This document shows positions 46,843-55,409 of a DNA stretch of 64,000 bases, piece after piece. The notes beneath the pieces are model-generated. The model saw only the letters and a list, made by a program, of their open reading frames with translations, did not search any database and was not told the origin of the DNA. Location: NCBI GenBank assembly GCA_005239175.1, contig ML241294.1:62001-126000 (forward strand), given 5' to 3'. A program made the position numbers and the translations under genes. The DNA comes from a halophilic archaeon SHRA6. Its GTDB lineage: Archaea; Halobacteriota; Halobacteria; Halobacteriales; Haloferacaceae. Numbering within the stretch: the first letter of the stretch is position 1; the number at the start of each line of letters is the position of its first letter.

Positions 46843-47886
46843 TCACCGGCCACGACGGAGTTCGGTGATCAGCTGTTCGAGCAGCTCACTCTGTCGTTCG
46901 AGCTGTGCTGCCTGTGTTTCGACTGCCTCGGTGAGTTCTGCAAGCTGTACAGAAATATCCTCCTCGTCGACTGGGCCGGCAGATTCGAACGGAGATCCCT
47001 CGAACGCGTCGGCCTCCGTTGGAGATTCCTCAGCGATCGGTTCGTCCGGTTCGATCGTCGTCGAGTTGGCAGTGCCAGAGACTGTCTGCGTGGTTGGATT
47101 TTCCGGTGTGAAACTAGCGTCTGTCGTGGTCTCAGCCGCGTTCGATCCCAATGGATCGAGTTCGGAGTCACCGAAGTCAAGCGAGTTCGCGCCGCCACCA
47201 TCTGCTGGCTCGGCTGAGAGTTCGGCGTCTGCTTCGGCCTCCGCTTCTGCTTCGCGTTTGTTTCGAAACGCAGCGAGGGTCTCGACATCGTGATGCGCAC
47301 AGATCGCTTCCGTCAGTCGCTCTTTGACCACCCGAGCTTCTTCGTTTGGTGTTTTGAACCGCTCTTGCCGACCATCGAGTGTCAGGACGATCGACGTCGC
47401 AACACTCCCCTGTTCGAACGTCAGATCCACGACATCGTCGTAGCTGAACTGTTCGGCATCAAGGTCCCAGACGGCCGAACCGATGTGTTTCACCACACGG
47501 GCGCTCGTAACCACGAGCGTTAGATCGCTAAAGCGGAACAACGCAAGGACTGACTCGTCGTCCTGGACAGTTCCAGCGGCTTCCAGTACGCCCGCAATTA
47601 CGGGTTCCAGCACGGTATCAACGTGCTTTGTTGGGACTGTGATCGTGTCCTCGCCGTCGAGACCGTACGTGAGTGTGATTTTCGCTTTGCGTCGACCGAC
47701 AGATACGCCGACCCGCTCGGCGTCGAGCGAGTACGTCTGGATCGATTCGTCGGACAACAGCCCTTCAGCTCGGTAGATGAGGACCCGCGTCGGCGTCACT
47801 ACGAGCACGTCGTCACCGCCAAGTGACACGCGCTCTCGGGCCGACTCCTCGTCGAGCGTCGTTTCGAGAAGCTCGGGCAGACTCAT
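46843..47886 (-). CDS. Haloarchaeal protein with PH-like repeats and C-terminal coiled coil
   Basis: This 347-residue acidic protein has two PH/GRAM-like beta domains in the N-terminal half (about 8-110 and 112-205; DDVLVVTPTRVLIYRAEGLL, then LTLVVTSARVVKHI). A disordered Glu/Ala/Ser/Thr-rich stretch (about 215-305) follows. A short coiled coil ends it (LAELTEAVETQAAQLERQSELLEQL). The ATG at 47886 opens the conserved domain. The 59 extra in-frame codons upstream look non-coding. Function is unknown. Confidence 0.7.
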   Translation of the reverse strand: MSLPELLETTLDEESARERVSLGGDDVLVVTPTRVLIYRAEGLLSDESIQTYSLDAERVGVSVGRRKAKITLTYGLDGEDTITVPTKHVDTVLEPVIAGVLEAAGTVQDDESVLALFRFSDLTLVVTSARVVKHIGSAVWDLDAEQFSYDDVVDLTFEQGSVATSIVLTLDGRQERFKTPNEEARVVKERLTEAICAHHDVETLAAFRNKREAEAEAEADAELSAEPADGGGANSLDFGDSELDPLGSNAAETTTDASFTPENPTTQTVSGTANSTTIEPDEPIAEESPTEADAFEGSPFESAGPVDEEDISVQLAELTEAVETQAAQLERQSELLEQLITELRRGR

Positions 47887-48030
47887 TGTCAAGGTGTTTA
47901 ATCGCCAGCGTATAAATTCGACGGATGTTGGTGTGCTGTCATCGGTGTGTACTTTTCTACGGTGTGTGATCGTGACACGATCGATCGAGATGAGAAGGTT
48001 AAAGACTGTCATCGCAGTACGTAGCGGTGA

Positions 48031-48182
48031 GGCCGGGTGGCTTAGCTGGACATAGCGCCGCACTCATAGGGTTACTGAGATTCGGTGCGGTAACCGCCTT
48101 GGAAGCATCCGCTCCCTTGAGGCTTGCCGAGCCTCATACCTGGGCTATGCGGAGATCGCGGGTTCGGAGCCCGCCCCGGCCA
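48031..48182 (+). tRNA. Elongator tRNA-Met (anticodon CAT) with intron
   Basis: Exon 1 is 48031-48068 and exon 2 is 48147-48182. A 78-nt intron (48069-48146) sits after anticodon position 37, the canonical archaeal site. Acceptor GGCCGGG pairs with CCCGGCC, discriminator A. Anticodon stem CCGCA/TGCGG has loop CTCATA plus A, with anticodon CAT at 48065-48067. Such introns are removed by the splicing endonuclease at a bulge-helix-bulge. Confidence 0.92.
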
Positions 48183-48242
48183 TCTACTGAGTATATCACA
48201 ACTAGCGGAGGCTCTATCGCAAAAAACGAGGACCTTACGCCT

Positions 48243-48387
48243 GCTGTTGAAAAGCTGGATTCGATTCGCTTGCTGTTGAAAAGCTGGATTCGATTCGCTT
48301 GCTGTTGAAAAGCTGGATTTGATCCGCTTGCTGTTGAAAAGCTGGATTTGATTCGCTTGCTGTTGAAAAGCTTGATTCGACCCGTCT
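48243..48387. repeat. Five 29-bp tandem repeats with CTGTTGAAA core
   Basis: Units start at 48243, 48272, 48301, 48330 and 48359, each beginning GCTGTTGAAAAGCT. The first two are identical and later ones differ by a few bases. The stretch 48183-48397 holds no gene. The CTGTTGAAA core is the same as in the mobile-element ends 280 bp to the right. Confidence 0.9.
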
Positions 48388-48397
48388 ACCCGACGGC

Positions 48398-48583
48398 CTA
48401 TACCGGCCGACCGCCCTCGCTTGTTCCGAGGAGAAGGGTGCCGACAGTGAGAAGGATGGCTGCGATCGCGAGCCCCGCGTATCCGATGGTGCCGGTGCCC
48501 GTGGCGATCCACGGGAGAAACAACGCAGTACCGATTACGAGCAACACCGCGCCGACGAGCGCCTGCTTCGGGATGATTGGCAT
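48398..48583 (-). CDS. Small two-helix membrane protein
   Basis: This 61-residue protein has two hydrophobic segments (about 10-29 and 31-52) separated by a short glycine-rich turn (ATGTGTIGYAG), with charged ends. ATG 48583 starts at PIIPKQALVGAVLLVIG. An in-frame extension upstream would add a non-hydrophobic, cysteine-containing leader and is unlikely. No function is recognised. Confidence 0.65.
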   Translation of the reverse strand: MPIIPKQALVGAVLLVIGTALFLPWIATGTGTIGYAGLAIAAILLTVGTLLLGTSEGGRPV

Positions 48584-48655
48584 AGATGCTGATGCGTGAC
48601 GACGAATAATGAGGTTTCCCCTTTGGCAGACAGCTGCGGCAGGCACACGCAATAT

Positions 48656-48663
48656 GGAATTGA
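48656..48663. repeat. Left 8-bp target-site duplication (GGAATTGA)
   Basis: GGAATTGA directly abuts the left inverted end at 48664. The identical octamer directly abuts the right end, at 54074-54081. Confidence 0.8.
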
Positions 48664-48776
48664 GCCTCTGTTGAAATCAGCAGCGCCTGATAGGAATGCC
48701 GTGCAAGATACAGAGGCTGTAGTCCTCACGGAAAATGCATTATTTTCTTCATCTGAATCTTGAATCAGCCGATAGA

Positions 48777-48987
48777 ATGCGCTTGCGTGAATTGACTGCT
48801 GAGCTACCTACCAGTTTCGGATGATTTTCAGAGCGCGTTACAAGATGCAGGGTGCGAATACAGCACGGATGGTTCTCCGAGTCGGGCTAACTTAGTTCGG
48901 TTCTTACAGGGTATAAGCAACTATCGATATGGAGAGAGGTTTGATCGGGCCGTCTTACGCTGTTGTGCCACAAATCCATTAAATTAA
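48777..48987 (+). pseudogene. Decayed reading frame near the left end
   Basis: An ATG at 48777 opens 15 codons (MRLRELTAELPTSFG) before a stop. A different frame is then open from 48796 to the TAA at 48985-48987 and reads like protein (VSDDFQSALQDAGCEY, then RANLVRFLQGISNYRYGERF). One frameshift would join them. No family is recognised, and it is not an obvious IS6 transposase remnant. The remainder of 48664-49164 shows nothing further. Confidence 0.35.
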
Positions 48988-49164
48988 CAGTCAGTTCTTT
49001 CAGCACCCAGCTGCTGTAGATGATAAATACTGAATAAACGCAGGCTGTCCCTGGTTACTCATTTGTTTGTGTCTCATTCCCGTGGCCACTCATATCACGG
49101 AAAGCGGAGTAATGTAAACTACTGTATCATTCCCGCTGTCTCGAAAAATGGTGTCGTCTTCGGA

Positions 49165-49905
49165 TTAGTGTCCGTGGCCGAGCGCTTCGTTACACATCGC
49201 GTTGAGTTCCGAGATCTTCTTCGTGACGCTCTCGGGTTTGTCCTGTGGCGGCTCCTCAAGCGCAGGTTGGCCGTGAGCGTCCGGTTCTCCGACGATGATG
49301 CTACCAATCATCCCGACCGTTTCGTGGGGCGTACAGTAGTAGTGGTAGACCCCTTCAGTCTCGAAGGTGTGTTCGAACGTCGCGCCTGCCTCCGAGAGGA
49401 GGCTGCTGTCCCACGACGCGGCTCCGTCGGGGACGAGCTGTGGTTGATCGTTTTCCGGGTGGTAGGCCGTGGCAGAGTGGCTCCCACTCTCGTTGTGGAA
49501 TGTCACCGTGCCGCCGACCTTAACTCGGGCCACGTGAGGGTCGAAGTGGTACGTCCCGTCCGTCGTGATCATGTTCACCTGTGCCGTTTCCGTCGGGTCA
49601 CCAACCTCCTCATCATGGTGGCTGTCTTCGCCGTGACCTTCTTCTTCGTCGTCGTGGCTCTCTTCTTCCTCGCTGTGTTCGTCCTCGGAGTCGTCGTGGC
49701 TCTCTTCTTCCTCACTGTGTTCGTCCTCGGAGTCGTCGTGGCTCTCCGTCTCGTTGTGACCATCCGAGTCAGAATGTTCTTCTGTCGATTCCGACCCGCC
49801 ATCACTCTCTGCCTGGCTGCCCGAACAGCCAGCGAGACCAATGGCCGCCGCAGTACCAGATAAGCTGAGCATCCGTCGCCGGGTGTACAGAGATTCGTTT
49901 GTCAT
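49165..49905 (-). CDS. Halocyanin-like cupredoxin, Tat lipoprotein
   Basis: This 246-residue protein has a Tat signal (YTRRRMLSLSGTAAAIGLAGC) placing it outside the membrane with a lipid anchor. Residues about 27-85 are an Asp/Glu/Ser/His-rich tail with two exact copies of SHDDSEDEHSEEEE, able to bind metal. The plastocyanin-type domain (about 90-200) has copper ligands: His in SGSHSATAYH, and Cys, His and Met in YYCTPHETVGM. It probably carries electrons or delivers copper. GTG 49917 is an alternative start. It lies divergent to an HTH gene. Confidence 0.88.
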   Translation of the reverse strand: MTNESLYTRRRMLSLSGTAAAIGLAGCSGSQAESDGGSESTEEHSDSDGHNETESHDDSEDEHSEEEESHDDSEDEHSEEEESHDDEEEGHGEDSHHDEEVGDPTETAQVNMITTDGTYHFDPHVARVKVGGTVTFHNESGSHSATAYHPENDQPQLVPDGAASWDSSLLSEAGATFEHTFETEGVYHYYCTPHETVGMIGSIIVGEPDAHGQPALEEPPQDKPESVTKKISELNAMCNEALGHGH

Positions 49906-50035
49906 GGGATCAGTCACCTTGCACTTGAGGAGACGCTTGCTGGGATAATGGGCGGGTCGCTGTTTTGCGCGCGACGCAAAACGATTCCCTCTTTAAGTAT
50001 CTTGGAGTATTCATGAACTACTGCGAGGAACATCC

Positions 50036-50386
50036 GTGTCCACACAAGAACGCTCTGACGAACTCTTGGAGCTCCTCGGCCAAGAACGAGTCCGGCAGAT
50101 TCTGGCCGCGACGAGTCAGGAACCCAGGTCTGCGAAGGAACTCAGCACAGAGTGTGATGTCGCGCTCTCAACCATCTATCGCCGAGTTGAGGACATGATT
50201 ACCAACGACTTGCTCGTCGAGCAGACACGGATCGAATCAGATGGGAGCCACCACAGCGTCTACGAGGCGAACATCGACCATCTCGACGTAGATATCGACG
50301 ATGGAGCCATTGACGTCCGCGTTCATGTGCGTGAGGACGCCGCCCAGCGGTTCTCACGCATCTGGAACGACATCAGGGAGAGTTGA
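50036..50386 (+). CDS. Winged-helix transcriptional regulator (ArsR-like)
   Basis: This 116-residue protein begins with GTG at 50036. A TTTAAG element about 40 bases upstream supports transcription from nearby. The helix-turn-helix lies at about 24-62 (RSAKELSTECDVALSTIYRRVEDMI) with wing EQTRIESDGSHHSVYEAN. The acidic C-terminal strand pair is DVDIDDGAIDVRVHVRED. It precedes two small membrane-protein genes and is divergent from the cupredoxin gene, so it probably controls them. Confidence 0.8.
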   Translation: MSTQERSDELLELLGQERVRQILAATSQEPRSAKELSTECDVALSTIYRRVEDMITNDLLVEQTRIESDGSHHSVYEANIDHLDVDIDDGAIDVRVHVREDAAQRFSRIWNDIRES

Positions 50387-50393
50387 TACACCC

Positions 50394-50693
50394 ATGCACA
50401 TCGAACTCGTCATCGCGAAACTCATCACGGTCGGATTGGGGCTATTGATAACGTACAAGGCGTATGAGGGGTACCGAACGTATGGAAGTGGGCCGATGCT
50501 CTACGTCGCTATCGGGTTCCTCTTCATCAGCGTCGGTTCTGTCATTGAGGGCATCTTGTTCGATGTTGTGGGTCTGTCTATCTTCCTCTCCGGAACCATC
50601 CAGACGGCAGTCGTCGCAATCGGGATGCTCGTTATTCTGTACTCGCTGTACGGCCGATTGCCACAACAAGCGAACGAAGGGGAGGCCCCATGA
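50394..50693 (+). CDS. Small haloarchaeal membrane protein (DUF7521-like)
   Basis: This 99-residue protein has three hydrophobic helices (about 4-20, 34-55 and 60-85). The basic/aromatic motif TYKAYEGYRTYG lies between the first and second. ATG 50394 lies eight bases after the regulator's stop, and the stop overlaps the next gene (ATGA). It shares its helix layout and Y/F-R-x-Y motif with the next gene, so the two are paralogous. The family name is from memory. Confidence 0.7.
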   Translation: MHIELVIAKLITVGLGLLITYKAYEGYRTYGSGPMLYVAIGFLFISVGSVIEGILFDVVGLSIFLSGTIQTAVVAIGMLVILYSLYGRLPQQANEGEAP

Positions 50694-50965
50694 CCGGTCA
50701 CTGGGAACTCGCATTAATCGCCGTTCGCGTCCTCCTCCTGCTAGTAGGGCTCGCGACGACCGCTATCAGTTTCCGCGCCTACCGGCAAGAAGGAACTCGA
50801 TACCTCCGCGACGCCACGCTCGGATTTGGATTTATTACACTCGGCGTCCTTATTGAAGGATTTCTCTACCAGTTCACTAGATTGACCCTCACGCAAGTTC
50901 ACGTCGCCGAATCCGTGTGTCTCGTCTTCGGACTCGGTATCCTTCTTCGATCGTTTCTTGATTAA
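50690..50965 (+). CDS. Small haloarchaeal membrane protein, paralogue of the preceding one
   Basis: This 91-residue protein has three hydrophobic helices and the motif ISFRAYRQEGTRYLRDA between helices 1 and 2, which parallels the preceding protein. It overlaps that gene by four bases and is translationally coupled. The pair might form a heteromeric membrane complex. The function is unknown. Confidence 0.7.
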   Translation: MTGHWELALIAVRVLLLLVGLATTAISFRAYRQEGTRYLRDATLGFGFITLGVLIEGFLYQFTRLTLTQVHVAESVCLVFGLGILLRSFLD

Positions 50966-51279
50966 CCTGGCAATCGGCGGTCATTGTGGGCGTGTACACT
51001 CAGCAGTCTATTTTTGACGTATATTTAACATATCGATGACTGCTTCGGTAACGGCTTCACCTGTACTGAGCGATTACAGCCTTCACAAATCGAGCCCCGA
51101 TCTCGTGCGGCATTCGCGCCCTCTATTCAGCAAGACTGCTGAAAACTATCATCGATTGAGGGTTTCAACAAGGCCGAGTCGTCCAATAATGAGTATCCAC
51201 GTAGTTATCTAGATAATTATCTCACGAGTTATCTAACCACGAACGACACAAAGAAAGTAAAATCAAGAATAGTCGGCGC
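50966..51279. other. Gene-free stretch containing the inner right end
   Basis: No reading frame of note. It contains the inner right end (to 51175) with its conserved subterminal part. An AT-rich region with the imperfect repeat GTTATCTAGATAATTATCT (about 51200-51220) follows, which may include a terminator for the leftward lipoprotein gene. Confidence 0.5.
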
Positions 51280-53121
51280 TTAGTTGACGCTCTTCGAGAG
51301 CTCGGCTCCTGCTTTGAATTTCACATCGTCAGACGCATTTGTCTCGCTGAAGTGGACGAGTCGTCCTTGGTGCGTAAGCACTACCGGCACATCATCGGTT
51401 GTCAGGGCTTCCGTCTCGGTGCGCCCCGGGCGCTTTCGCAGCATGAGGTCGTCTCCTTCTGCTTCCGAAAGGACCCCTTGGGCAACTGCATCCGAAATCG
51501 ACCCATCAAACAGTCTTGCTCCTTGTCGCTCTCGGTCGTCAGACAGGCTTCGAGCAACCACGTCTCCGTACCCATCTCCATTCAAGTCACCAGCGCCAAC
51601 ACCGAGGACTTCCGTCGGTCCTCCCACATCCACGAGCGTGGCAGAGTTCTCGTAGAGACTGCCATCGTCGATAACCCACCCACCTGTGTAGAGATACTGG
51701 TCAGCGTTCTTGCAACGGCGAACGTACAACAGCGCGGGGAATGGCGTCGGGCAGTCCGGCGGGGAGACCATAATCGGACACACGAGTGTCGGCGTGGCCG
51801 AGTTCGCCCCATTTTCTGAACCCCAACTCTCGAAGTCAGCGGGGGCGACTGACGACCCATCTGCACTGACTGCGAGGGCAGGCGTCGTCTCCGTGGCCTG
51901 TGGTGGGTCGTTCACCACGTGAACCCTGATTCGGCCGTCAACGGCGGTGACTTCGAGATGGATACCTGTGTCCACGGGTCCCGAAAGGGCTGACAGGCAC
52001 ACGTCCGAGTTGGAGAGAGAGATGTCGTCACCCATGATTGCCCTGTTAAGGACGTTTTCACCACCAATCGCGTCTCCCTCGTAAATCGGGCTGGTGTTTC
52101 CTCCACCGTTTTCCGTGCGGGCTCGGAGCTCTCCCCACGCGTATATCTTACCTTCAGTATCGGCTCGGCCGGTCACGTACTCGATGATGCGGCGCGGAGT
52201 GAGTTCGTTAACGAGAGCGAGGTCCCGGCCCGGGACGCGAGCGTCGGGGACCGTAATGGTAAACAGCTCGCTGAGTATGGGTTCATCAGCGAGGTAGTCG
52301 AACACGGCTCCTACGTTGTCTCCCGGCATCACCATATCTCTGTCTTCCCCGAGGATGATTTCGCCGGTCACGCCCGAGGTGTTTGCGTCGTTCAACGAAG
52401 AGTCGAGCAGTTCGATGTCACCTTCGACGATTCCTCGTATCTTTTGAACGTCTTCGGCAGCGGCTTCCCACTCGCCGTTCTCAACGTGCTCTGCCGCTTG
52501 CTGAGCCAGTGACGCTCTGTCATCCGAGTGGTTTCGCACGGTCACGCACACGTCGTCAGAGCAGCGTTCGAGCGTGGCCTGTATGTCTTCGATGGTGTCG
52601 CCCATGTCTGCGAGGCCGCGAGGCCCTTTGCGTGCAGAGCGCTTGCTGATGGAGTCGGCTGCTGCTTTCGTCTGGGAGAGCAGTTGGTTCTCTAACTCCA
52701 GTGCTTTAGAACGGAGTTCGACTGTATCGTCGATTCCGTCGCCGTCTGAATCCGCATCTCCCGGGCCACGGATTTTCGACTTGTTGCTTCGACTGTTGTT
52801 GTAGTTGGCCGCAGCGAGGGCTTGCGCAGTCACCCACGCTTCGAGTTCGACCTCTCCGGAGAGCAGTCCGGAATCACCGGACACTGTCGGAGTGAGTTTG
52901 TACACGGTCGGGTCGCCCGTCGGCGAGGGGCCGGTGTACTCACCAATACCTGCAAACGGTGCTGCTGGGGATGCTTCTGTATTTGTCGTCGCACTTGCGA
53001 CTCTACCGAGACAGCCACTGAGCGCACCAACGGCCAAGAGACCACTCGCAGTAAGCATCTGTCGACGGCTAGTTCCCATTGCCGACATATCCCGCTCAGA
53101 ACTGTATCTTTTTGAAGCCAT
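51280..53121 (-). CDS. Large Tat lipoprotein with calcium-binding repeats
   Basis: This 613-residue protein has a Tat signal (TSRRQMLTASGLLAVGALSGC) and is lipid-anchored outside the cell. EF-hand/thrombospondin-type calcium motifs appear at about 123-131 (DADSDGDGIDD) and, as an FG-GAP-like unit, near 514-525 (AGDLNGDGYGDVVA). The middle part carries helical segments and beta-rich regions without recognised domains. TATA-like TTATCA about 30 bases upstream supports ATG 53121. ATG 53088 and 53079 are alternatives nearer the Tat motif. It is the only gene in the central passenger segment. Confidence 0.75.
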   Translation of the reverse strand: MASKRYSSERDMSAMGTSRRQMLTASGLLAVGALSGCLGRVASATTNTEASPAAPFAGIGEYTGPSPTGDPTVYKLTPTVSGDSGLLSGEVELEAWVTAQALAAANYNNSRSNKSKIRGPGDADSDGDGIDDTVELRSKALELENQLLSQTKAAADSISKRSARKGPRGLADMGDTIEDIQATLERCSDDVCVTVRNHSDDRASLAQQAAEHVENGEWEAAAEDVQKIRGIVEGDIELLDSSLNDANTSGVTGEIILGEDRDMVMPGDNVGAVFDYLADEPILSELFTITVPDARVPGRDLALVNELTPRRIIEYVTGRADTEGKIYAWGELRARTENGGGNTSPIYEGDAIGGENVLNRAIMGDDISLSNSDVCLSALSGPVDTGIHLEVTAVDGRIRVHVVNDPPQATETTPALAVSADGSSVAPADFESWGSENGANSATPTLVCPIMVSPPDCPTPFPALLYVRRCKNADQYLYTGGWVIDDGSLYENSATLVDVGGPTEVLGVGAGDLNGDGYGDVVARSLSDDRERQGARLFDGSISDAVAQGVLSEAEGDDLMLRKRPGRTETEALTTDDVPVVLTHQGRLVHFSETNASDDVKFKAGAELSKSVN

Positions 53122-53547
53122 TAATGTGTGTTAGACGCTTTCAACTATGATAAGCATTCTTACAAAAGTGGGCGGGGATTTCACATTAGAGATTCAGGAT
53201 TTATCCCCTTCCTCTCGGACCAAGACTGACCCCGGATGGCAGCTTATGCTGTCAGGCGAACAGTCTTTGCTGCCATGGGTGCTGGCTATTCCATCGAGAC
53301 CGGTGTTCGGACTTGTCTGCCGCCCAACAATACTGTTGTAATAGCCGTGATTTGGACTGAAACACCTGATTTGTGGGCGTAGAATGCTTCTAACAACCTC
53401 AAAAATAGCACAGTTATATGGCTCTGTTGAAATCCTTAAGAACTGACAGAATCGGCGTGCAAGATACAGAGTATGTAGTCAGCAAAGTCGTGTTCTCAAA
53501 ACAAGTGGGGGAGAGGGATTTATTCTTACCCAGTGTCGAATGATCGT
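53122..53547. other. Mostly gene-free stretch with inner left end
   Basis: It holds the left end of the uspA cassette (from 53420) and an AT-rich leader. A 48-codon frame at 53236-53382 (starting MAAYAVRRTVFAAMGAGYSI) has hydrophobic character but no support beyond that. No other gene is seen. Confidence 0.5.
53518..53525 (+). promoter_or_regulatory. TATA element of the uspA cassette gene
   Basis: ATTTATTC lies about 26 bases before the ATG at 53548, so the cassette carries its own promoter for a leaderless uspA message. Confidence 0.5.
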
Positions 53548-53964
53548 ATGGCAATTCTTGTGGCCTACGACGGTTCCAACGCGGCACAGAAAGCGGTAAA
53601 GCGTGCAGTCAGAGCCGCGGATGGGGAAGAGATCATCCTATTACGGGTGATCGAAGCAGCTGATGGGATGCTCGAGGCGGGGATAGATATCGTTCAGGAA
53701 CGGCTCAAAGAGGTGCAAGATGAGAAGACAAACGAGGTGTACGAGGAGATCAAGCCAATGCTGGAGGCGGAAGGCGTCGAATTCCGGATCGAAACTGTCG
53801 TTGGCAAGCCCTCTAGAGAAATAGTTTCCTTCGCAGAGGAAAACGACGTGTCAGAGATTGTTGTCGGAAGTCGCGGCCGGGAGGGAGTCTCCCGCGTGTT
53901 ACTAGGGAACGTCGCCGAAAGCGTCGTTCGACGTGCCCCGGTTACAGTCATTGTTGTTCGCTGA
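53548..53964 (+). CDS. Single-domain universal stress protein (UspA family)
   Basis: This 138-residue protein starts with AILVAYDGSNAAQKAVKRAV. It ends with the nucleotide-binding signature VGSRGREGVSRVLLGNVAESV, followed by PVTVIVV. It is a complete, apparently functional member. GTG 53533 (five more residues) is an alternative start. It is the only gene between the two ends of a 654-bp cassette and does not closely match either domain of the two-domain member at 5481. Confidence 0.88.
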   Translation: MAILVAYDGSNAAQKAVKRAVRAADGEEIILLRVIEAADGMLEAGIDIVQERLKEVQDEKTNEVYEEIKPMLEAEGVEFRIETVVGKPSREIVSFAEENDVSEIVVGSRGREGVSRVLLGNVAESVVRRAPVTVIVVR

Positions 53965-54073
53965 TTCGGGTCCGGTTCAGTTTTCCAGCATACCGTAGTC
54001 GAGTGCCGAGTACGCGCGCTGTATCCAGCATGACCTCTGTGAACTATCAGCAGTTGAGGATTTCAACAGAGCC

Positions 54074-54081
54074 GGAATTGA
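54074..54081. repeat. Right 8-bp target-site duplication (GGAATTGA)
   Basis: Identical in sequence and orientation to 48656-48663, and directly adjacent to the right inverted end at 54073. Confidence 0.8.
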
Positions 54082-54110
54082 CTATGGAGCCCTCCGAAGA
54101 TCGCCTGAGA

Positions 54111-54176
54111 CAGCCATCGAGACTCGTCTGGGCAGCCATCGAGACTCGTCTGGGCAGCCATCAAGACTCGTCTGGG
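54111..54176. repeat. Three 22-bp direct repeats upstream of msrB
   Basis: CAGCCATCGAGACTCGTCTGGG at 54111 and 54133, and once more at 54155 with one base changed. The array ends 20 bases before the msrB TATA region. Confidence 0.9.
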
Positions 54177-54196
54177 ACGGACAACCGAGACGACGG

Positions 54197-54203
54197 TTTA
54201 TCA
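54197..54203 (+). promoter_or_regulatory. TATA element of msrB
   Basis: TTTATCA is about 26 bases before the msrB ATG at 54226, consistent with a leaderless transcript. Confidence 0.45.
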
Positions 54204-54225
54204 CCCGCGATCACATAGAGTATAC

Positions 54226-54645
54226 ATGGCCAAATCAAACAGTAGCGAGCGATCTGTTGACGTTCCCGAAAGCGACGATGAGTGGCGCGAACGGCTCACC
54301 GACGAGGAGTATCGCGTCCTCCGAGAAAGTGGCACGGAGCCACGGTTTAGCGGTGAACACGTCGATCGCGACGACGATGGCACGTACCGCTGTGCAGGCT
54401 GTGGCAACGTCCTCTTCGATTCGGAGACGAAGTTCCACTCCGGCTGTGGGTGGCCAAGTTTCTACGCCGCCGAAAGCGACGCGGTGACAAAACACACTGA
54501 CACGAGCCACGGAATGCGCCGAACAGAAATCTGCTGTTCGGCATGCGACAGCCACCTGGGCCACGTGTTTGATGACGGCCCAGATCCGACCGGCAAGCGA
54601 TTCTGTATCAACTCGGTGGCGATCGACTTCGAACCCGAGGCATGA
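54226..54645 (+). CDS. msrB: Peptide-methionine (R)-S-oxide reductase
   Basis: This 139-residue cytoplasmic enzyme reduces methionine R-sulfoxide in proteins. Four zinc cysteines are seen in CAGCGN and [22 protein letters not shown] and the C-terminal catalytic Cys in [12 protein letters not shown] are family signatures. It lies directly right of the 5.4-kb insertion. Length is normal. Confidence 0.95.
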
Positions 54646-54719
54646 GCACAGGCCGATCTGAGCGCACACTGGAACACAACTATACCTAAATCGTCACACC
54701 AACACCGCTCGATCGAGCG

Positions 54720-55409
54720 CTACAACAGCGATTTGACGTGTGAGACGTACTGATTGTCGACAGCACGTTCGATCGCGGCCGGATCTCGTTCACCGTTAAC
54801 CGAGACGATGTAGGCCCGACCGTCGACAGCACCGTACGCGCCATGGATGTCGTAGACAAAGCCGTACACGTCGACGTGATCAGGAATCGAATCCGCATCG
54901 AGTAAAAATGACACCTGTTCAAGCACGTTATACTCTACAAGACGGTTGATTGTGGTCTCTCTGTCAACTTCATCGGCCAACCCGGCTTCGAGACCGGATT
55001 TGACGATCGGGATGAGCCCATCGATGTCATGTGCGATCCCCGGGTCAGTCGGATATTCGTCCTTGGTCACGGCGTCGTACGCGGCCGTGACAGCGCCACA
55101 CCCTGTATGTCCGACGACTGCGATCGCGGTCGTTTCGGTGTGGTGAATCGGGTACGTGATGCTCCCGGAAATAACGGCGTCGCCGTCGATCGTGGTCCGG
55201 ACCTGATTGCCAATATTGGTTGCGGTAAAGAGCCACCCCGGTTCGGTGACGTTCCACATTCCCTCGTGAGCGACCCTGGAGTCTGAACAGGAAACCGAGA
55301 CGACAGGCGGTTTCTGACCGTCTCGGACCGCCTTGAACAGATCGAGCGACAGTGATTGATGATGATCGTCGTTTCGGGCTAATAGCTCCGAGAGGAGATC
55401 ATCTCGCAT
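54720..55409 (-). CDS. Beta-class carbonic anhydrase
   Basis: This 229-residue zinc enzyme hydrates CO2. Zinc ligands and catalytic Asp/Arg lie in VSVSCSDSRV (Cys and the Asp-Arg dyad) and VVGHTGCGAV (His and Cys). The C-terminal portion (VDVYGFVYDIHGAYGAVDG) is as usual. ATG 55409 lies one base after the stop of a 40-codon membrane-protein gene, to which it appears coupled. Confidence 0.92.
   Translation of the reverse strand: MRDDLLSELLARNDDHHQSLSLDLFKAVRDGQKPPVVSVSCSDSRVAHEGMWNVTEPGWLFTATNIGNQVRTTIDGDAVISGSITYPIHHTETTAIAVVGHTGCGAVTAAYDAVTKDEYPTDPGIAHDIDGLIPIVKSGLEAGLADEVDRETTINRLVEYNVLEQVSFLLDADSIPDHVDVYGFVYDIHGAYGAVDGRAYIVSVNGERDPAAIERAVDNQYVSHVKSLL

Follow-up and report, generated by a model that had tools for sequence, protein, structure and literature searches.

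The window, by which we mean the whole 64,000-nucleotide stretch of DNA that was analysed, contains a 5,410-bp unit of six genes bordered by a short direct repeat. The octamer GGAATTGA occupies positions 48656-48663 and 54074-54081, immediately outside both outer inverted ends, as the first-pass annotation had reported. The outer left end starts at 48664 with GCCTCTGTTGAAATC, and the outer right end is an inverted GGCTCTGTTGAAATC whose last base is 54073. The interior holds two further ends, of which GGCCTTGTTGAAACCC at 51175 is a right end and GGCTCTGTTGAAATCC at 53420 a left end, and the order of the four ends across the unit is left-right-left-right. The two left-right pairs around a passenger segment that had been described earlier are present, but the pair 48664/51175 joins two different TIR subtypes. 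Inspection of the ORFs and a profile search found no transposase in either end pair, in agreement with the earlier description. The features of the unit are as follows.

48656..48663, unstranded: left copy of the target duplication GGAATTGA, from the sequence
48664..48796, plus strand: outer left end, subtype-I TIR GCCTCTGTTGAAATC (one mismatch) and a subterminal end module of ~130 bp; 72% identity over 123 bp to a left end elsewhere in the genome (C1:767483-767605)
48825..50997, unstranded: cupredoxin module, present in other haloarchaeal plasmids without these ends; 91-93% identity to a Halobacterium sp. DL1 plasmid
49165..49917, minus strand: plastocyanin/halocyanin-like copper protein gene (PF00127, 50 bits)
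50036..50386, plus strand: helix-turn-helix regulator gene (weak HTH-family matches, below cut-off)
50394..50693, plus strand: DUF7521 membrane protein gene (PF24365)
50690..50965, plus strand: second DUF7521 membrane protein gene (PF24365)
51114..51175, minus strand: inner right end of subtype II (GGCCTTGTTGAAACCC), lacking a separate duplication and followed by GAGTCGTC; shares 58 of 62 positions with the right end of the subfamily-II transposase elements L340 and L341
51280..53121, minus strand: gene for a lipoprotein of 613 aa outside any known family, without a match in Pfam or NCBIfam
53420..53486, plus strand: inner left end, subtype I, which opens the uspA cassette and follows AGTTATAT; 88% identity over 67 bp to a left end elsewhere in the genome (C2:658065-658131)
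53533..53964, plus strand: universal stress protein gene, uspA (PF00582, 110 bits)
54009..54073, minus strand: outer right end, subtype I, from end comparison and subtype
54074..54081, unstranded: right copy of the target duplication GGAATTGA, from the sequence

The similar sequence common to the ends spans 60-130 bp, and the outer left TIR differs from the subtype-I consensus at two of 16 positions. The 8-bp duplication was found on the outer pair only; the pairs 48664/51175 and 53420/54073 have none of their own, and the octamers flanking the inner ends, GAGTCGTC after the right end at 51175 and AGTTATAT before the left end at 53420, match at one of eight positions. The probability of an exact octamer at both borders by chance is ~1.5e-5. 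Nested insertion was ruled out as the origin of the four ends, because it would give the order left-left-right-right. An Rfam search over 47500-54800 returned no match. By eye, 48027-48183 is a candidate for an intron-containing, Met-like tRNA gene, which neither ARAGORN nor Rfam reports.

Two of the cargos have relatives elsewhere. Plasmids of Halorarius and Haloplanus carry the cupredoxin module at 72-81% identity, and unit-type ends are absent beside the module in each of the DL1, Halorarius and Haloplanus plasmids. Because these copies have no such ends adjoining, the module also exists outside the mobile unit; it may have been captured into the unit, or the ends may have been lost from the plasmid copies. 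A protein 64% identical to the 613-aa lipoprotein is encoded on a Haloplanus rubicundus plasmid, and a distant relative (E 1e-8, over two short stretches) is the cargo of a Halobaculum litoreum cassette flanked by the exact duplication GAGTCGTT.

The same ends recur throughout the genome. Searching it for GGCTCTGTTGAAATC with up to two mismatches gave 52 matches, compared with 2 for the reversed control. There are ~17 inverted end pairs, of which 7 have exact 8-bp duplications and a further 3 match at 7 of 8 positions; chance would yield ~0.0003 exact duplications among this many pairs. The seven are C2:656805-658129, C1:707684-708196, C2:187323-188011, C3:496-2461, C3:9971-10314, C3:100328-101551 and the 5.4-kb unit. 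No transposase was seen among the ORFs of the duplication-flanked pairs. Their cargos vary, including a 281-aa protein without a Pfam family, a HicA toxin with its partner, an aldo/keto reductase with a methyltransferase, an alpha/beta hydrolase, a luciferase-like monooxygenase, a GNAT acetyltransferase and a BrkB-like membrane protein, and C3:9971-10314 has no ORF of 60 aa. Tandem cassettes are also present. The first-pass proposal of a mobile unit carrying a cupredoxin module, a large lipoprotein and uspA is supported by these data, except that the unit is no one-off: at least ten transposase-less elements with duplications occur in this genome, and 52 were collected across haloarchaea.

Elsewhere in haloarchaea, such ends accompany a transposase. 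Three end pairs (L126, L186 and L234) enclose a 273-aa protein assigned to the IS5 family (NF033579, 218 bits against a cut-off of 140), whose copy in Halorubrum lacusprofundi is called ISHla2 in NCBI naming. The start codon of this transposase lies exactly 52 bp inside a GGCTCTGTTGAAATC-type end in all 39 copies with an intact N terminus. In L234 and L286, a transposase end and a cassette-type end are joined under one exact duplication, which ties the cassette ends to the ISHla2-type transposase. From the 8-bp duplication, we take ISHla2-type elements to belong to the ISH1 group of the IS5 family. At E 1e-60 or better, the transposase has a match in 104 of the 167 genomes of the family; the sister species is among them (84% identity), whereas the genome studied here is not, and no intact ISHla2-type transposase was found in it. 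A transposase at C1:485192 of this genome (42% identity) was rejected as the partner, having no such ends.

Near-identical copies of ISHla2 itself, a repeat of 1,193 bp, are present in two genomes. Between lineages, elements that bear a transposase can be aligned over their first 830-900 bp only; the remaining 0.3-1.3 kb differs, mostly with a different ORF. One genome (G086) holds three copies with exact duplications, lengths of 1463, 1215 and 1610 bp and transposase modules that are ~90% identical, with no match reported outside the module. An IS1595-type element, which brings its own ends and the duplication TAAATTGT, interrupts an ISHla2-type element with a passenger (L126:475-2819). In another genome (G021), the sequence on the right of one ISHla2 copy (L316), AAGTCAAG, equals that on the left of another (L317), as would follow recombination between copies.

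Other candidate partners were set aside. Haloarchaeal IS1595-type copies end in CGCTCTTGTGTAGCACATTG, which differs from the TIR of the unit and rules out an IS1595/ISH4 origin; the genome has no IS1595-type copies. The DDE-type (L119) and TnpB-like (L120) transposases merely overlap an end from outside, and a gene near an end in L094 lies outside the element and has a DUF772 domain only. ISH6 was also considered, and its TIR was not found in the literature searched. That search, which left ISfinder and most subscription journals outside its reach, found nothing naming ISHla2 or linking this TIR to haloarchaea.

The inner end at 51175 sets itself apart from the other three. A second transposase subfamily, 68-71% identical to the ISHla2 type, has ends close to GGCCTTGTTGAAACCC, with the transposase start 52-54 bp away in 6 of 6 loci. 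Together with the match between the 51175 end and the cassette-type ends of L340 and L341, this places 51175 in subtype II, whereas the ends at 48664, 53420 and 54073 are subtype I. Because the inner 51175 end belongs to the second TIR/transposase subfamily, the outer pair is the matched pair, and it is this subtype-matched pair that carries the duplication. The split between subtypes is incomplete, as a few duplication-flanked elements, including L286, pair a subtype-I end with an intermediate end. A third transposase clade (L333-L338, ~45% identity) has ends reading GGCTCTGGTGAATCGC and occurs as plain 937-bp elements that carry no cargo; its member L336 has the exact duplication GTTTACAG.

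We next consider how widely the ends are distributed. A pattern of 25 fixed end bases matched 93 stretches in 84,980 species genomes, and all among the 80 listed were haloarchaeal by title. The pattern is present in 58 of 170 genomes of the same family, where the control matched none. Two end queries hit 79 and 62 plasmid records, with all organisms haloarchaeal among the matches listed, and no viral contig matched the end pattern exactly. Across loci L088-L235, 296 plus/minus end combinations gave 47 exact and 6 one-mismatch duplications at offset 0, compared with 0 or 1 at each of 17 other offsets. This offset specificity, like the 7 exact duplications among ~17 pairs in the genome itself, bears out the earlier judgement that the octamer at the borders of the unit exceeds chance. 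After identical copies were removed and the genome's own and transposase-bearing elements added, the collection comprised 70 different elements flanked by duplications, of which 18 include a transposase and 52 do not, a ratio that is no census because the sample was drawn by end pattern or by transposase.

Taken together, these data favour, with a probability of about 0.76, the interpretation that 48664-54073 is a composite non-autonomous cassette with ISHla2-type TIRs that a trans-acting transposase moved on one occasion and in one piece. The observations establish the ends, the duplication, the lack of a transposase, the sharing of ends with ISHla2-type transposase elements, the movement of sibling cassettes and the missing unit in the sister species; we infer the single composite movement, the action in trans and the donor-site history. 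An ISHla2-type transposase, now missing from the genome, would have been supplied in trans and would have used the matched subtype-I ends at 48664 and 54073 to place all 5.4 kb in the intergenic DNA upstream of msrB; the 8-bp repeat GGAATTGA would have arisen when the staggered cut was repaired. The unit contains the uspA cassette (53420-54073), the cupredoxin module, which now lies between a subtype-I left and a subtype-II right (51175) end, and the lipoprotein gene between these two. The inner flanks GAGTCGTC and AGTTATAT may be halves of older duplications from a donor site, and their dissimilarity fits this origin. The interpretation is weakened by the lack of an intact ISHla2-type transposase in the genome, by the imperfect empty site of the sister species and by the two mismatches in the outer left TIR, and no locus with the half-duplications expected of a donor came to light.

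The same dissimilarity counts against the integration of a circle, by homologous (Campbell-type) recombination, into a resident ISHla2-type cassette at GGAATTGA. If the circle carried a second cassette, such an event would generate left-right-spacer-left-right and keep the outer duplication, thereby predicting the observed end order and borders; the similar sequence at the ends could serve for recombination, and the flank exchange suggested between identical ISHla2 copies in G021 offers a precedent. However, the inner flanks should then be copies of one older duplication, and the 51175 end should not be of the other subtype, so we regard this route as unlikely. It is less probable still that a cupredoxin unit and a uspA unit inserted independently on either side of a resident lipoprotein gene. 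Each cargo could form a cassette alone, and tandem cassettes do occur in the genome, but the outer octamers would have to match by chance, each unit should have a duplication of its own and neither does, and the lipoprotein gene is also missing from the corresponding site of the sister species. We give almost no credence to an IS6-type compound transposon, the assignment made in the first-pass annotation. The 8-bp duplications, ends beginning GGC.CTGT that resemble those of IS6, and the presence of IS6-type transposases (PF13610) in the genome speak for it, but the PF13610 copies end in GGCACTGTCTAG, whereas the observed ends go with the IS5-family transposase; the unit has neither IS6-family ends nor two flanking IS copies.

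Comparison with the sister species, Halalkalirubrum salinum N1521, provides evidence of movement. This genome lacks the 5.4-kb unit, and the flanks, at 87-89% identity, are joined directly. The comparison suggested in the first-pass annotation, for an empty site with a single octamer, is thus borne out with respect to the absence of the unit but not with respect to GGAATTGA, which does not stand there as a single copy: a right-border stretch of ~85 bp, in which the octamer falls, is missing or diverged, leaving no clean empty site. Sibling cassettes have moved. The site of e9, a smaller element of the genome studied here, is cleanly empty in the sister, where the octamer occurs once with one base changed. 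Another cassette, e469, is absent from the corresponding site in the sister, with a diverged patch at the junction, and is present there at another locus (95% over 1,400 bp), where it lies between ends with a 7/8 duplication. In that copy (L295:1933-3762, on C19 of the sister), an inner end is damaged and a further outward end carries the 7/8 duplication, a pattern suggesting that the cassette grew when the next outward end was used. The sister also has an autonomous ISHla2-type element with the exact duplication ACATGAGA. In addition, Halorussus litoreus and Natrinema pallidum share a 417-bp unit at 100% identity, flanked by a different duplication in each.

Several known systems resemble the unit in part. 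In mobile insertion cassettes (MICs), passenger genes lie between IS-type TIRs without a transposase, and the cognate IS is the presumed mover (PMC3129680); bacterial examples have been described (PMC5444012, PMC6304161). The unit likewise has TIRs of a known family, an 8-bp border duplication and passengers without a transposase, but its ends are of the IS5 family, its hosts are archaea, each genome holds many different cargos and the unit itself combines several cassettes. Compared with ISHla2-type IS, it has the same 15-16-bp TIR and 8-bp duplication, and some autonomous copies have the same cassette-type end, but it lacks a transposase, has a longer multi-gene body and, where the promoter region of the transposase would lie, carries a subterminal end module. 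Transporter IS are IS with passenger genes (PMC3129680). The transposase-bearing siblings of the unit similarly carry a variable passenger downstream of the transposase, which the unit itself lost or never had. Haloarchaeal MITEs such as ISH2, MITEHsal and HqIRS are also transposase-free, with TIRs of an IS family, and are mobilised in trans (PMC3119063, PMC10264941); ISH2 and a partial ISH8 have integrated together under one duplication (PMC10264941). Those MITEs, however, are short and nearly all non-coding (PMC3119063), whereas the unit spans 5,410 bp with six ordinary genes. The 8-bp duplications and TIRs point to a DDE transposase rather than to an integron gene cassette, with its attC site and integron integrase.

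Haloarchaea exchange genes frequently, and to our knowledge the vehicles for single genes are poorly known. The family to which the unit belongs is widespread and largely unannotated in haloarchaea, and moves ordinary genes between sites. Both MICs and transporter IS are already recognised kinds of element; within the limited coverage of the literature searched, and as weak evidence, we found no archaeal family on this scale with per-copy cargo, no TIR subtypes that follow transposase subfamily and no multi-cassette composites. The gain and loss of isolated genes, such as toxin-antitoxin pairs, acetyltransferases, copper proteins and regulators, would be explained by a cassette family with a 15-bp TIR and an 8-bp duplication as its hallmarks; such a family yields a simple annotation rule and singles out one transposase as a candidate. 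Use of the next outward end is a suggested route from small cassettes to multi-gene units. More broadly, and at what we consider even odds, ISHla2-type IS5 elements may constitute a general gene-capture and shuttling system in haloarchaea, in which a ~890-bp transposase module stays constant (or is missing), ends can be swapped and almost every lineage fills the cargo slot differently; the transposase-less cassettes, of which this genome holds about ten, could merge into composites through the next outward end, as a transposition-based analogue of integron cassettes.

Some smaller observations accompany these results. Tandem repeats lie near both borders of the unit, of 29 bp (about five copies) at 48238-48382 and of 22 bp (three copies) at 54111-54176, and the 29-bp repeat includes CTGTTGAAAA, which is reminiscent of the TIR. 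Two short elements, of 207 bp (L117:403-609) and 213 bp (L222:4836-5048), have the variant TIR TGCTCTGTTGAATCC and exact 8-bp duplications, and represent a short related MITE. At L198:435-1803, a cassette with the duplication AGCGTAAC lies inside another with the duplication ACCTCGCC, forming a true nested pair.
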